Notes under the pieces: generated by a model
The model's database searches: none
Told to the model about the DNA's origin: nothing
Seen by the model: the letters and a program-made list of their open reading frames with translations, nothing else
In this document: one piece after another, positions 48,906 to 54,818 of the stretch
Layout of the letters: each line of letters opens with the position of its first letter
Numbering within the stretch: position 1 is the stretch's first letter
Origin: Ramlibacter pallidus
Lineage (GTDB): Bacteria > Pseudomonadota > Gammaproteobacteria > Burkholderiales > Burkholderiaceae_C
Assembly: GCF_015070875.1 (NCBI RefSeq)
Contig: NZ_JADDIV010000004.1
Span: forward strand, 372,001 to 436,000
Direction: 5' to 3'
DNA: 64,000 nt
Translations under genes and position numbers: made by a program

Positions 48906-50024
48906 ATGACGCGCCTTCGCTACCGCCACTGGATCGCCACCGGACTCGCTTCCGCGCGTGCGGCGCCTGCTGCTGCGACCGGCACGCATGGGGCGGCCCC
49001 CTTTCGCATTGGAGACCTTGCGCCTGCCGCGCTGGGACACCGCTGCGGACCTGGCCGCGTGGCTGGACGTTCCCTTGGACAGGCTGCAGTGGTGGACGAG
49101 CCCGGCACAGGACTTCCGCGCGATGCAGGCCGATCGGCCAACCAGTGCGCACTACCATCCGCTGCTCAAGGCCAAGCGCTCGGGCGGGCTGCGGCTGATC
49201 GAGGTTCCCAAGCCCGCCTTGAAGCGCGCGCAGCAGAAGCTGCTGTCCGGCCTGCTGGAGGCTGTGCCCGTCCATGAGCATGCCCACGGCTTCGTTCGCG
49301 GCCGCAGCGCGATCAGCCACGCGCGCGGGCATGCCGGCCATGCCGTGGTCCTGGCCTTCGACTTGCGGGATTTCTTCCACAGCATCGGCGTCGCGCGCAT
49401 CCGTGCGCTCTGGCGGACGCTGGGCTACGCCGAAGGCGTCGCCGACGCGCTGGCGCGATTGACGACGACGCGCACGCCCCTCGCGGTCCGTGAACGGCTC
49501 GTCGACGACGGCGGCATCGACTGGAAGGGCGCCAGGCGCCTCGCCTCCCGCCACCTGCCGCAGGGCGCGCCGACCTCCCCCGCGCTGGCCAACCTGTGCG
49601 CGTTCGGGCTGGACCTGCGGCTGGAGGGACTGGCCTGGCGGTTCGGCGCGCACTACAGCCGCTACGCCGACGACATCGTCTTCTCCGGACCGCGCGAGCT
49701 GCGATCGCGCGGCCGCGCGCTGCAATCCTGGGTCGAGGCCATCGTGCAGGCCGAGGGCTTCAGGCTGCATCCCGGCAAGACGCGGCGGATGCCCGCCCAC
49801 CACGGCAGCAGGTGACCGGGATGGTGGTGAACGAGCGGCCCAACCTGGCACGGGACGCCTACGACCGGCTGCGGGCGCGATTGCATGCCTGCGCCGCGAG
49901 CGGCTGCGACGCCGCGACCTGGACGCGGTTGCAAGGTCAGGTCGGCTGGGCGTGTCAACTCGTCGTGGCGTCGCGGGCGGAGAAGCTGCAACGCATGCTG
50001 GCGGCGGTGCCGGTCCGGCGCTGA
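48906..50024 (+). pseudogene. Retron-type reverse transcriptase, degraded
   Basis: The RT core is clear from 48958 to 49815: RSGGLRLIEVPKPALKRAQQ, VPVHEHAHGFVRGRS, DLRDFFHSIG, the retron-like LPQGAPTSPALANL, and the catalytic box SRYADDIVFSG. Two lesions are seen. The start MTRLRYRHWIATGLASA (48906) is in another frame from the core and much of the usual N-terminal segment is missing. After RRMPAHH (about 49802) the hallmark QVTGMVVNERPN continues in the minus-one frame to 50024. An intact form would need both repaired. Programmed frameshifting at the second site is possible but less likely. Confidence 0.75.
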
Positions 50025-50181: not shown

Positions 50182-51129
50182 ATGGTCTGGGCACGCTTCT
50201 TCGTGCATCTGGCGCTGCTGGCGGCAAGCCTGGCCTGGCTGTCCCTGGCGGGCTCGCTGGCCCCGCAACTGCTGTTCAACGCGGCGCTCCTCTCGCTGGC
50301 CATCGTGCAGCTTGGCTTCCTGGCGCACGACGCATCCCACCGGCAGATCGTGCGGAGCGCACGCGGCTCGCGGCGCCTCGGCTTCCTGCTCTGGAACGTG
50401 CTGTGCGGCATCAGCGTGTCGTGGTGGGAGGACAAGCATCGCCGCCACCACCGCCATCCGCATGTGCTGGAAGCCGACCCCGACCTCTATGACGTGTTCG
50501 TCTTCCTGCCCGCGGCGCTCGCAGGTCGCCCGGCGTGGCGCCGCCGGGTCGCGCGCTGGCAGGCCTGGCTGTTCCTGCCGCTGGTGGCCTGCACCGCGGC
50601 CTATTTCCAGGGGCTGAGCTTGCTGCATGTCGTGCGGGCGCGGCCGCGCGGCTGGGTCGCGGAGCTCTCGGCGCTGGTCCTGCGGCACGGCGTGCTCTTC
50701 GGCCTGGCGCTGCATGCGCTCGGTCCCACCGGAGCAGCCGCCTTCCTGCTGCTCCACCACGGCCTGACGGGTCTCTACCTCGGCGGGGTCTTCGCCTGCA
50801 ACCACTACGGCCTGCCGGTGCTGCCGCCAGGCACCGACCTGCGCGAACCGGAACGGACGCTGGCGGTCACGCGCAACGTGCGCACCGGCCGCGTCGGCGA
50901 CTACCTGTTCGGCGGGCTGAACTACCAGATCGAGCACCACCTGCAGCCGGCCCTGCCGCAGCATGCCCTGCGCGCTGCCGCGGCCCGCACGCGCGCGTGG
51001 TGCCGGGCCGAAGGCCGCACCTACCACGAGACCGGCTGGTGGGACGCCATGCGGGCGGTGTTCGCGGGCCTGCACGCGGCGGGGCAGGGGACCGCACTGG
51101 AGGCACGGAGGCCGCATGCTGCGCCATAG
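50182..51129 (+). CDS. Membrane fatty acid desaturase-like protein (first of the lipid cluster)
   Basis: The 315-residue protein has hydrophobic helices and the three histidine boxes of membrane desaturases: HDASH (H-x3-H), KHRRHH (H-x2-H-H) and QIEHH, the last of the front-end/acyl-CoA type. Known relatives introduce double bonds or oxygen into acyl chains using a diiron centre and oxygen. It is the first of four genes overlapping by 14, 4 and 4 bp. Its stop lies inside the next gene. Confidence 0.88.
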   Translation: MVWARFFVHLALLAASLAWLSLAGSLAPQLLFNAALLSLAIVQLGFLAHDASHRQIVRSARGSRRLGFLLWNVLCGISVSWWEDKHRRHHRHPHVLEADPDLYDVFVFLPAALAGRPAWRRRVARWQAWLFLPLVACTAAYFQGLSLLHVVRARPRGWVAELSALVLRHGVLFGLALHALGPTGAAAFLLLHHGLTGLYLGGVFACNHYGLPVLPPGTDLREPERTLAVTRNVRTGRVGDYLFGGLNYQIEHHLQPALPQHALRAAAARTRAWCRAEGRTYHETGWWDAMRAVFAGLHAAGQGTALEARRPHAAP

Positions 51130-51970
51130 CGCCGACCGCAGGACGCTGCTGTACATGGCCGCCGCCACCGGCGTGCTCTTCGCGCAGTGGACGGCCGACC
51201 GCTTCCACCCGCTGCTGTTCGCCGCGTCGCTGGTGCTGGCGTTCGCCGTGAGCGTCATGCACCACAACCACCAGCACCTGCCGCTGTGGCGCAGGGCGTG
51301 GCTCAACCATGCCACCGACCTGTGGTTCACGCTGTTCCAGGGACATCCCGGCTTCGCCTTCGACCCGGCGCATGTCGGCGACCACCACGCGCACCGGAAC
51401 GCGGAGCGGGACACCACGCGCACGTGGCGCTGGGGTGACGGCAACGACTTGCCGGGCTTCATCGCGCACCCGGTGCTGTTCGCCTGTGCGGTGGGTCCGC
51501 TGCTCGGGCGGCATGTCGCGCAGCTCTCGCGGACCGATCGCCGCCGCCTCGCGGTGGTGGCGCTGCACTATGCCGTTCTCGTCGGCGCCGTGGCCTTGGC
51601 GCTTCGGGCCGACTGGCAGCGCGCCGTGTTGTTCGTGTTGGTCCCGCAGGCCGCGGCCCTGTTCTTCCTGCTCGCCGCCAACTACCTGCAGCATGCGCAT
51701 GCGGACGACCTTTCGCGCTGGAACCATTCGCGCAACTTCCTCGGCTGGGTCAACCCCCTGTTCTTCAACGTCGGCCTGCACACGGCGCACCACGAGCACG
51801 GCGACGCGCACTGGAGCGATCTGCCGCGGCTGCATGCGCAGCTCGCGCCCCGCCTCGATCCCCGCCTGGTCGAGCCGAGCCTCTTCGCCTACGGCCTGCG
51901 CGTGTTCGTGGCAGGCACCTTCGTCCCCGCGCTCCGCTCCCGGTCCCTGCGAGGCCGCACCGTTTCATGA
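51116..51970 (+). CDS. Second membrane desaturase/hydroxylase-like protein
   Basis: The 284-residue protein has several membrane segments and histidine clusters MHHNHQHLP, GDHHAHRNAERD and HTAHHEHGDAH, the spacing of the fatty acid desaturase/alkane hydroxylase superfamily but different from its neighbour. It overlaps the first desaturase by 14 bp and the ketoacyl synthase fusion by four. Reaction and acyl substrate are unknown; two different diiron membrane oxygenases in one operon suggest sequential chain modification. Confidence 0.85.
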   Translation: MLRHSADRRTLLYMAAATGVLFAQWTADRFHPLLFAASLVLAFAVSVMHHNHQHLPLWRRAWLNHATDLWFTLFQGHPGFAFDPAHVGDHHAHRNAERDTTRTWRWGDGNDLPGFIAHPVLFACAVGPLLGRHVAQLSRTDRRRLAVVALHYAVLVGAVALALRADWQRAVLFVLVPQAAALFFLLAANYLQHAHADDLSRWNHSRNFLGWVNPLFFNVGLHTAHHEHGDAHWSDLPRLHAQLAPRLDPRLVEPSLFAYGLRVFVAGTFVPALRSRSLRGRTVS

Positions 51971-53901
51971 ACGCCCCCACCGAACGTTTTTCCGTCTTCC
52001 CCACGCGCTACCGGCGCGTGCACCTGGTGGGCTCCGGCCTGTTCATGCCGGGGCTGCCCGTGCCGAACGCCGAGATCGACCGCTACGTCGCGCCGCTGAA
52101 CCGCCACTCGGAGCGCATCAAGCGCCGCGTGCTCGCGGACAACGGCATCGAGACGCGCCACTACGCCATCGACGAGGCGGGCAACTCCCTGCATTCGTCC
52201 TCGGACCTGGCGGCGCGCGCGGTGCAGGACTGCCTGCGCGCGGCCGGCGCCAAGCTGGAGGACGTGGGCATGCTGTGCACCGGCTCCTCCGGCGGCGACA
52301 CCGGCATGCCCGGCTTCGCCAGCATGCTGCAGGGCGAACTCGGCGCCCGGCCGATGGAGATCAGCAGCCACCAGGGCATCTGCGGCGCCGGCATCTCGGC
52401 GCTGGTGCATGCCGCTTCCGCCATCGAACTGGGCACCCACGCGCGGGCGCTGGTCGCCACCAGCGAGTTCCCGTCGCGCCTGTTCAAGCGCTCGCGCTTC
52501 GTCCCGTCGGGCTACGACACCGACTTCGACGCGCACTTCCTGCGCTGGATGCTGTCGGATGGCGCAGGTGCCTGGCTGCTCGCGGACCAGCCGGCGGCCA
52601 CCGGCTTGTCGCTGCGGCTGGACTGGGTCAGCTCGCGCTCCTTCGCCGGCGACCTGCCCGTGTGCATGCAGGTGGGCTTCGCGCATGACAAGGCCGGCAA
52701 GTCGTACCTGGACTATCCCTCGCTGGCGGAGGCGGAGCGCGACGGCGCCTTCCTGCTGCGGCAGGACACCCGCCTGCTGCCCCAGCTGTTCGACCTGGGC
52801 ATCCACGAGTACGCGAACCTGGTGCGCGCCGGCTGCTTCGACCCGGCGCGCGTCGACCACTTCCTCTGCCACTATTCGTCCGAGAAGTTCGCCGGCGTGA
52901 TCGAGGACCTGATGGAACGCGCCGGCCTGCGCCTGCCGCGCGAGCGCTGGTACAGCAACCTGCGCCGCCGCGGCAACACCGGCGCCGCCTCCATCTTCAT
53001 CATGCTGGCCGACTTCCTGCGCGAGAAGACGCTGCAGGTGGGGCAGGAGGTGCTGTGCTTCGTGCCGGAGTCCGGCCGGTTCACGGTGTCCTTCCTCAAG
53101 TTCACGGTGGTGCAGGCGGGGAGCGCGCCCGCCCGGGCGGAGCCGGCTCGCCCGCCGCAAGTGCAGGTCGGGGATGCCGGCTCGGACGAGGGCGCCGACG
53201 TGCCGCCGCCGCACCTGCCGTTGCCGGGGCAGGACGGCCGGGTGGCGCACGTGCTGCGTGAACTGGCCGGCGTGTGGCACGAGTTCCGCTCGGACTTCTG
53301 GCGCACCCCGCTCGTGCGCCGCATCGTGCAGGGCCGCATGTCGCGCGACGACCACCTGGCCTGGATGGCCTGCTGGATCCCGCAGGTGCGCGAAGGCAGC
53401 CTGTGGATGCGCGAGGCGGTGCGCAACACGGGCGCGCCCTACGAAGAACTGGTTCGGCTCATCTCCGCGCATGCCGACGACGAGCAGCACGACTTCCGCA
53501 TCCTGTTCGACGACTACCGCGCGGCCGGCGGTACGGCGGAGCGCATCGAAGACCTGCGCCGCAACCCCGGCGGCGACGCGCTCAACAGCTACATGCATGC
53601 GGCCGCGGCGCAGCCCAATCCGATCGGGCTGCTGGGCGGCATCTACATCATCGAGGGCACCGGCCAGCGCATCATCCCTTCGCTGCTGCCGCGCCTGCGG
53701 CGGCAACTGCAACTGCCGGAATCGTCCTATCGGTTCCTGCGCTACCACGGAGAGAACGACGTGCAACACCTGGCCCGGTGGATGGATGCGGTGACGCATG
53801 TGATCTCGCAGGACCCGACGGGCGACGCCGGCGAGCGCATCGTCGCCACCGCCCGTGACGTGGCGGCCCTCTACGTGATGCAGGCGAGGCACGTCCTGTG
53901 A
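51967..53901 (+). CDS. Beta-ketoacyl-ACP synthase III fused to haem-oxygenase-like diiron oxygenase domain
   Basis: The 644-residue fusion has a KAS III domain (about 15-382) with nucleophile Cys139 (HQGICGAG), His302 (FLCHYSS) and Asn337 (RRGNTGAA), the three-residue active site. A 40-residue proline-rich linker follows. The C-terminal domain (about 425-644) is of the iron-containing redox enzyme / haem-oxygenase-like diiron family, with candidate ligands Glu476, Glu506, His508, Glu563, His594, Asp598 and His601 (HGENDVQH). Known relatives (UndA, BesC) break C-C bonds or form alkenes from acids. The fusion would make and then oxidise an acyl product. It starts inside the stop of the previous gene. 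Confidence 0.85.
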   Translation: MNAPTERFSVFPTRYRRVHLVGSGLFMPGLPVPNAEIDRYVAPLNRHSERIKRRVLADNGIETRHYAIDEAGNSLHSSSDLAARAVQDCLRAAGAKLEDVGMLCTGSSGGDTGMPGFASMLQGELGARPMEISSHQGICGAGISALVHAASAIELGTHARALVATSEFPSRLFKRSRFVPSGYDTDFDAHFLRWMLSDGAGAWLLADQPAATGLSLRLDWVSSRSFAGDLPVCMQVGFAHDKAGKSYLDYPSLAEAERDGAFLLRQDTRLLPQLFDLGIHEYANLVRAGCFDPARVDHFLCHYSSEKFAGVIEDLMERAGLRLPRERWYSNLRRRGNTGAASIFIMLADFLREKTLQVGQEVLCFVPESGRFTVSFLKFTVVQAGSAPARAEPARPPQVQVGDAGSDEGADVPPPHLPLPGQDGRVAHVLRELAGVWHEFRSDFWRTPLVRRIVQGRMSRDDHLAWMACWIPQVREGSLWMREAVRNTGAPYEELVRLISAHADDEQHDFRILFDDYRAAGGTAERIEDLRRNPGGDALNSYMHAAAAQPNPIGLLGGIYIIEGTGQRIIPSLLPRLRRQLQLPESSYRFLRYHGENDVQHLARWMDAVTHVISQDPTGDAGERIVATARDVAALYVMQARHVL

Positions 53902-54818
53902 AGAAGCAGCCCAAGTTCCTCGACGGCGCGCACGACCCGCGCGACCCGAACCCCTGGATGGCCGTCTGGCTGGACCGCAGCATCCCGATCGACGACACCG
54001 TCAAGCGCGCGTGGCTGGAAGACAGCAGCTCCGCGTCGCGCCAGTTCCTGCTGCCGGTGGTGCGGCCGCTCGCGCGCGCGGCGATCGTGCTGATCCAGCT
54101 GGTCAAGATCTTCCTGCCCAAGACGCTGACTTCGTCGCGCGTGCTGCACTGGCTGCTGTCCGAAAGCCTGAAGACCTTCGTCACGCCGAACGCCAACTGG
54201 CTGATCCTGCGCCACTTCCACCTGGGCGCGGAGATCCTGGCCTTCCTGGGGCGCAACATCCAGGGGGTGACGATCCCGCCGCTCGAGAACATGCGCATGC
54301 GCAACCTCGAGGACCTGAAGGAGGACGCCTTCCTGCGGCACGACCTCAACGTCTTCAACTTCCTGATCTACCTGAACCAGCAGCTGCGCGACCAGGGCCG
54401 CGACATCGTCCCGGCGGCGCAGCTGGATTTCAGCGACGTCACGGACGGCGACCTTCCCATCGAGCCGATGCCGGACCGCTGGTGCAACAAGGTCGACCTG
54501 CAGACCGCCATCGAGCTCTACACGCCGGTGTACCAGCTGTTCCTGACCGACAACGACTTCTGGCGCGCCACGCATTCGCTTCAGCTCGACGAAACCATCG
54601 CCATCTACGCCGCGCGCGTGCTGAACGATCCGCTGCCGGCGATGCTGGTGAACAACCGCCACCCGATGATTCCGCTGTCGACGCTGCGCTCCGGTGCGCG
54701 CCTGGTGCTCCATGGCCTGTCCGTGGAGATGCTGCACGCCTACCTGGTGTTGAAGAAGCGGGAGCAGGCGCGCGGCGCGCTTGCGGGCGCGCCGCCGGCC
54801 GCGCCCGCGGTGGGTTGA
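53898..54818 (+). CDS. Unknown protein of the lipid cluster
   Basis: The 306-residue protein is not recognised. It begins KKQPKFLDGAHDPRDPNPWM, has a hydrophobic stretch around 55-80, a conserved-looking VTPNANWLILRHFHLGAEIL with a His pair, and RHDLNVFNFLIYLNQQL. Charged helices dominate the second half; there is no signal peptide. It overlaps the fusion gene by four bases (ATGA-type), so it is almost surely part of the same pathway, perhaps a membrane-associated partner of the diiron enzymes. Confidence 0.6.
   Translation: MKKQPKFLDGAHDPRDPNPWMAVWLDRSIPIDDTVKRAWLEDSSSASRQFLLPVVRPLARAAIVLIQLVKIFLPKTLTSSRVLHWLLSESLKTFVTPNANWLILRHFHLGAEILAFLGRNIQGVTIPPLENMRMRNLEDLKEDAFLRHDLNVFNFLIYLNQQLRDQGRDIVPAAQLDFSDVTDGDLPIEPMPDRWCNKVDLQTAIELYTPVYQLFLTDNDFWRATHSLQLDETIAIYAARVLNDPLPAMLVNNRHPMIPLSTLRSGARLVLHGLSVEMLHAYLVLKKREQARGALAGAPPAAPAVG

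Follow-up and report, generated by a model that had tools for sequence, protein, structure and literature searches.

Two families of enzymes frame the locus described here. In the dar cluster of Azoarcus, darB is listed as a dialkylresorcinol (DAR)-cyclase and darA as a DAR-aromatase (PMC3949708), and a paper cited by PMC3992019 announces in its title a widely occurring ketosynthase that forms 1,3-cyclohexanediones and resorcinols. Heme-oxygenase-like dimetal oxidases (HDOs) carry ligand sets described as 3H/3C and 3H/4C (PMC13108848); the motif E-H-X-H-D-H or E-H-X-H-E-H is found in about 85% of their groups, FlcD deviates from it (E-H-X-H-V-R), and about 9% of groups lack a strong prediction (PMC11363339). 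Both enzyme types are joined in one protein of a four-gene operon of Ramlibacter pallidus, located at positions 50182 to 54818 on the forward strand of the 64,000-nucleotide stretch analysed here (the window; contig NZ_JADDIV010000004.1 of a genome assembly of 4.3 Mb and 6 contigs). The operon represents a lipid module that is real, widespread and apparently undescribed and whose oxidase domain is non-canonical; we infer its function from comparison. Its most probable role, to which a probability of roughly 0.5 is assigned, is that of a conserved module in which two acyl chains are condensed and then oxidised by the fused domain to an oxidised two-chain lipid.

The third gene (51967..53901, +) encodes a 644-amino-acid fusion of an StlD/DarB-like ketosynthase and a PF14518 heme-oxygenase-like oxidase, as judged by Pfam, alignment and fold. 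The fourth (53898..54818, +) encodes a predicted all-helical protein of the family DUF6999 (PF22523; 398.9 bits against a cut-off of 27, E 1.2e-119). Genome samples of the class and the phylum, evenly drawn, overlapping and including the R. pallidus genome itself, contain DUF6999 in 7/369 and 9/398 genomes, or 14 distinct genomes when combined, and among 14 control genomes only Caulobacter vibrioides, a laboratory model, gave a match. In 12 of the 14, ketosynthase and oxidase adjoin each other next to DUF6999, as a fusion in eight (R. pallidus, G284, G605, G782, G043, G721, G049 and G079) and as two neighbouring genes in four (G137, G362, G631 and G771). Because both partners adjoin DUF6999 in so many of these genomes, the predicted core consists of ketosynthase, oxidase and DUF6999, with His-box enzymes as common partners of the fused form. 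The occurrence of the same pair either fused or separate beside DUF6999 also fits a ketosynthase and an oxidase that act in sequence. Another genome, G112 (C95:1434-2358), contains DUF6999 fragments and a ketosynthase remnant, seemingly what is left of a core copy that has decayed. Two loci encode proteins of 185 and 188 amino acids immediately upstream of the split ketosynthase (L027:11436-11993 and L135:10441-11007); neither has a Pfam family over cut-off, and the one in L135 is membrane-like by eye.

Near-full-length fusions were found in 3 of 61 genomes (R. pallidus and 60 relatives), the other two (G043 and G049) coming from other families of the same order, and in none of 36 other searched genomes of the genus, several of which are incomplete. 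In a collection of named sequences, 272 stretches encode a relative, which rules out that the gene set is unique to the R. pallidus genome. The best 80 of these 272, a choice that favours full-length fusions, are all near full length with 54-64% identity and include Lysobacter, Variovorax, Achromobacter, Bordetella, Azoarcus, Collimonas, Chitinimonas, Povalibacter, Cellvibrio and Woeseia. Among plasmids, the fusion protein is matched in 41/72,556 records; the one record that covers at least 80% of it is that of Pseudoalteromonas sp. THAF3, where ketosynthase, oxidase and DUF6999 are separate genes.

Two proteins with His boxes precede the core in R. pallidus, both desaturase-like by PF00487 (cut-off 29.7): gene 1 (50182..51129, +; 115.1 bits, 5.9e-33) with H49xxxH53, H86xxHH90 and Q249xxHH253, and gene 2 (51116..51970, +; 72 bits, 8.6e-20) with the different boxes HNHxH, HxxxHH, QHxH and HxxHH. 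For neither was a solved relative found at E up to 0.1, and the start codons of both are consistent with relatives. Consecutive genes of the operon overlap by 14, 4 and 4 bp, all on the same strand. An initial annotation of this DNA, made from its letters and reading frames, had already described the overlaps and the differing His boxes, and both descriptions hold. The overlaps support a co-transcribable lipid gene set.

Gene order was compared across 82 related loci, namely the 80 named loci together with L024 and L025. The order PF04116-type hydroxylase, gene 2, fusion, DUF6999 recurs in 77 of them (76 on the plus and one on the minus strand); PF04116 was scanned in two first-gene proteins, and the others were assigned via BLAST similarity to one of these two. 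Counting the one locus in which a gene 1 relative comes first, gene 2, fusion and DUF6999 follow an upstream first gene in the same order in 78/82 loci, and since three of the four genes recur in this way, the gene set is more than a chance association. That one locus, L029 of Lysobacter niastensis, carries the same four genes in the same order as the window, its gene 1 relative being 43% identical. Gene 2 itself is found in 80/82 loci. Departures from the common order are few: in Povalibacter (L031) only fusion and DUF6999 are present, gene 2 is missing from Lysobacter chinensis (L097), the hydroxylase gene of Woeseia (L096) sits downstream, and the Collimonas locus sequence (L093) stops before the expected DUF6999 position. 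Two desaturase-like proteins as the defining pair of the system were rejected, gene 1 being present in only 1/82 related loci. Position 1 holds a PF00487 protein in the window and L029 where most relatives have a PF04116-type hydroxylase.

Beyond DUF6999 the neighbourhood varies. No downstream gene spans many genera (51/81 loci have a candidate), and the largest downstream cluster unites 22 loci, from Variovorax and Bordetella; its example frame begins inside DUF6999, which suggests a shadow frame. With the unit itself and shadow frames excluded (told apart by coordinates), flank clusters in 34 representative loci reach at most six genus labels. In G721, a diacylglycerol kinase gene (L133:7171-7557, PF01219) overlaps DUF6999 by 4 bp, and the ketosynthase of this genome groups with that of the window in a quick tree. 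In G631, from another class of the phylum, a 1133-amino-acid protein with major facilitator, acyltransferase and AMP-ligase parts (L134:3697-7098) adjoins DUF6999. Judged by their sequences, these neighbours would place the core in a membrane-lipid context and are counted in favour of a two-chain membrane lipid.

The ketosynthase part of the fusion covers residues 1-385 (51967..53121, +) and matches PF08541 ACP_syn_III_C (34.7 bits, cut-off 26.6). C139, H302 and N337 are invariant in 83/83 fusion rows (window included) and are also retained in five aligned split forms, in agreement with the intact Cys/His/Asn site proposed before. The best solved relative by phmmer is StlD (3.5e-61). A Foldseek search with an AlphaFold2 model of the fusion (mean predicted local distance difference test, pLDDT, 81.6; predicted template modelling score, pTM, 0.62) likewise placed StlD on top (5gk2/5gk0, E 1.1e-30), followed by AbyA1, PqsD, FabH and OleA (about 1e-19 to 1e-17), and all of the best 50 matches listed were ketosynthases. 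H302 aligns with the His that is mutated in the StlD structure 5gk2. The original reading as a ketoacyl synthase III (KAS III)-diiron fusion was right in its two domains, which Pfam recognises, but sequence and fold mark the ketosynthase as StlD/DarB-like rather than generic KAS III. This kinship would point to dione-type products rather than to an olefin. A different outcome is rather unlikely, namely head-to-head joining as by OleA to a beta-keto acid, from which oxidative decarboxylation or cleavage by the oxidase would yield a long-chain ketone, enone or internal alkene. In its favour, OleA appears among the fold matches (E about 1e-17), the oxidase superfamily is known to accept fatty acids (UndA; PMC13108848) and no carrier protein was recognised among the four genes. 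Against it, StlD is by far the better match in both searches, and no other member of an olefin pathway was recognised in the four-gene set. Elsewhere, a Streptomyces plasmid (L028:9992-11128) encodes an StlD/DarB-like ketosynthase of 381.9 bits, below cut-off, with acyl carrier proteins, FabF, a cytochrome P450 and a flavin-dependent (FAD) monooxygenase as neighbours.

In a quick tree of the ketosynthases, the fused forms make up one group (Shimodaira-Hasegawa-like approximate likelihood ratio test, SH-aLRT, 100), to which three of the five split rows attach (84), while the remaining two split rows are long and unplaced; the program warns of meeting long branches, including at the join of the three split rows to the fused group. 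The window, G721 and L029 fall together (SH-aLRT 92 and 93, under the program's mark of 95). No hydroxylase gene was detected by profile in the 15 kb of the G721 locus (L133), nor by BLAST in L029. One loss or replacement of the hydroxylase gene on this branch would fit.

The oxidase part (residues 415-644; 53209..53898, +) matches PF14518, iron-containing redox enzyme, with 43.4 bits (cut-off 28.9) and is all-helical over residues 424-641 in the AlphaFold2 model. Its candidate ligands are E506, D509, E563, H594, D598 and H601. These six and H502 are invariant in 83/83 rows and E476 is conserved in 82/83; the five aligned split oxidases retain all eight residues, E476 and D509 included. For comparison, 31 other PF14518 loci were taken, 29 high-scoring ones from the order together with L001 and L002 of the R. 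pallidus genome. Five of them (L158, L160, L168, L170 and L001) had no match to the seed model and were dropped, leaving 26 alignable proteins, and the seed model was itself built partly from proteins later aligned with it. All 26 have the alpha-1 His in the column of Asp509 and retain E563, H594, D598 and H601; at position 506 there is Glu in 24 and Gly in two. The canonical alpha-1 Glu/His pair of HDOs is thus broken by Asp in place of His, whereas the alpha-2 Glu and the alpha-3 His-Asp-His are present. Because the alpha-1 His column holds Asp509 in all 83 rows, the candidate metal-site residue set is non-canonical. The "full set of candidate ligands" claimed for this domain consequently stands for E563, H594, D598 and H601 but not for the alpha-1 His. 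Were H502 a metal ligand, the count could still come to 3H/4C, though the alpha-1 positions differ, and the group may belong to the roughly 9% without a strong prediction (PMC11363339). The R. pallidus genome encodes another PF14518 protein (L002:1387-2070) with canonical ligand columns, the gene for which adjoins AMP-ligase-like and short-chain-dehydrogenase-like frames by eye.

Two further interpretations hinge on this domain. It could have become non-catalytic, structural or metal-sensing after loss of the canonical His, which is indeed replaced in every row, with the ketosynthase alone making the product. The complete conservation of seven residues in the 83 rows, nearly matched by E476, and of all eight in the split forms makes this quite improbable, as relaxed constraint would not preserve them. 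Alternatively, chemistry like that of UndA or BesC could convert a chain tailored by the desaturase-like proteins to a terminal alkene, as the initial annotation had guessed. The superfamily is the same (PF14518), and UndA forms a terminal alkene by decarboxylation of a fatty acid (PMC13108848). However, the alpha-1 His common to the 26 alignable PF14518 proteins is Asp throughout the fusion rows, among solved structures only 3dde, a protein of unknown function (1.1e-7), is a credible sequence relative of the domain, no UndA chain was listed among solved sequence relatives at E up to 1, and on reasoning ketosynthase and DUF6999 would be unneeded. The olefin guess has gained no positive evidence, and a terminal alkene is very unlikely.

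The fourth gene product, previously called an unknown protein, does belong to a named Pfam family, albeit one of unknown function. Its model is all-helical (pLDDT 84.1, pTM 0.83), and R105, H106, H148, D149, H255, H272 and E277 are invariant even when the 25%-identical Pseudoalteromonas protein is aligned. Among the best 50 Foldseek matches listed, 13 are UndA, PolF or RohS chains, at E of at least 0.6 and with template modelling scores (TM-scores) of 0.10-0.15, and a profile comparison with the oxidase gave a probability of 0.1 of 100. The idea that DUF6999 is a hidden oxidase sharing the fold of the fused domain is a lead only.

Taken together, a route to the oxidised two-chain lipid can be proposed. 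The His-box enzymes would hydroxylate or desaturate acyl chains. The ketosynthase would then condense two acyl thioesters to a beta-dicarbonyl or cyclic 1,3-dione; the thioesters would come from primary metabolism, since no carrier protein, ligase or transporter was recognised by Pfam among the four operon genes. The condensation product would be handed directly to the fused oxidase, which would use O2 for its dehydrogenation, hydroxylation or oxidative decarboxylation, and DUF6999 would complete, anchor or transfer the product. The end product would most likely be an oxidised two-chain lipid that stays in the membrane and may bear a resorcinol- or quinone-like ring. Pfam recognised no DarA-type aromatase among the four genes (no DarA model was run, nor was the genome searched for one), so the oxidase could fill that role, which makes a ring possible. 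That the fused domain oxidises a dione is the most economical of the specific guesses, though less likely than not. On a bolder version, tentative and on the whole unlikely, the fused oxidase would represent a new class of HDO metal site, with Asp for the alpha-1 His and H502 and E476 recruited, that oxidises the ketosynthase-made dione in place of a dialkylresorcinol aromatase and, with DUF6999 and two membrane oxygenases, gives rise to an undescribed class of two-chain, ring-bearing membrane lipids in many Pseudomonadota.

Several observations weigh against a two-chain lipid made in this way, the reaction and product of which are themselves predicted from sequence. The ketosynthase scores 323.5 bits against NCBIfam NF005293 (StlD/DarB; cut-off 450) and 266.8 against NF053539 (DarB; cut-off 550). 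As both scores are under the curated cut-offs, the protein is best called StlD/DarB-like and not a member, and cyclisation is not assured. Six relatives, four of them split, are likewise under 450 and 550 (321.7-413.7 and 263.6-387.7 bits), and a stand-alone protein, L026, exceeds the cut-off of 450. Asp509 might have no metal-binding role. Two of the 82 relatives lack gene 2, one of these also lacking any recognised first gene, and neither gene 2 nor the hydroxylase was detected by profile in split loci; the His-box enzymes are therefore not obligatory. Three other PF04116 genes elsewhere in the Ramlibacter genome might serve in trans. One genome, G134, carries DUF6999 without the ketosynthase-oxidase pair and has only a weak ketosynthase-like match elsewhere. 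Finally, no solved structure is a credible sequence relative of DUF6999 (best E 1.3), and its Foldseek search returned nothing significant.

Regarding the surroundings of the operon, its GC (guanine-cytosine) content in 1-kb windows (0.68-0.73) is inside the range of the flanks shown (0.65-0.74), the gene downstream of it has a match in 19/40 genomes of the genus, and an Rfam scan of the window gave 0 matches at gathering scores. Closely upstream lies a Retron-St85-like reverse transcriptase (48958-49815 and 49596-50024, +) that scores 142.7 bits, under the cut-off of 235. Its C-terminal continuation is in a different frame by eye, and the gene looks broken.

The literature searched, which omits most subscription journals and is weak evidence for that reason, contains no mention of DUF6999, and searches of it brought up no description of the set of ketosynthase, oxidase, DUF6999 and His-box enzymes. 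The earlier statement that no described pathway has this set agrees with that search. The unit is widespread, with relatives in the 272 stretches. For this compact lipid module of Variovorax, Achromobacter, Lysobacter, Azoarcus and others, no published function was found. Its fused and split forms provide a natural setting in which to study how a condensing enzyme passes its product to an oxidase. Should the altered ligand set bind metal, it would widen the range of metal sites in the superfamily, and DUF6999 gains a gene context.

Among known systems, PA1895-1897 of Pseudomonas aeruginosa, a target of QscR, is likewise a short operon, and two of its three genes have Pfam domains that suggest fatty acid synthesis (PMC6113619). 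The available text of that description mentions no ketosynthase, heme-oxygenase-like protein or DUF6999, which sets it apart from the operon in the window. OleA, the head-to-head condensing enzyme, shares the thiolase-fold ketosynthase and gives a significant fold match, but the ketosynthase in the window is closer to StlD and is accompanied by no recognised further olefin-pathway gene among the four. With the HDOs UndA, BesC, SznF, CADD, FlcD and PolF the oxidase shares PF14518, and H594-x3-D598-x2-H601 and E563 fall in the alpha-3 and alpha-2 ligand columns; it differs in having Asp509 for the alpha-1 His, an invariant H502 and a near-invariant E476, and so departs from the motif reported for about 85% of groups. 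Closest are StlD (PDB 5gk0, 5gk1, 5gk2) and DarB of the stilbene and dialkylresorcinol pathways, which match over residues 17-382 with Cys, His and Asn aligned. In contrast to these, the ketosynthase described here falls under the NCBIfam cut-offs, lacks a recognised flavin aromatase in its four-gene operon, and is fused to or paired with an oxidase.

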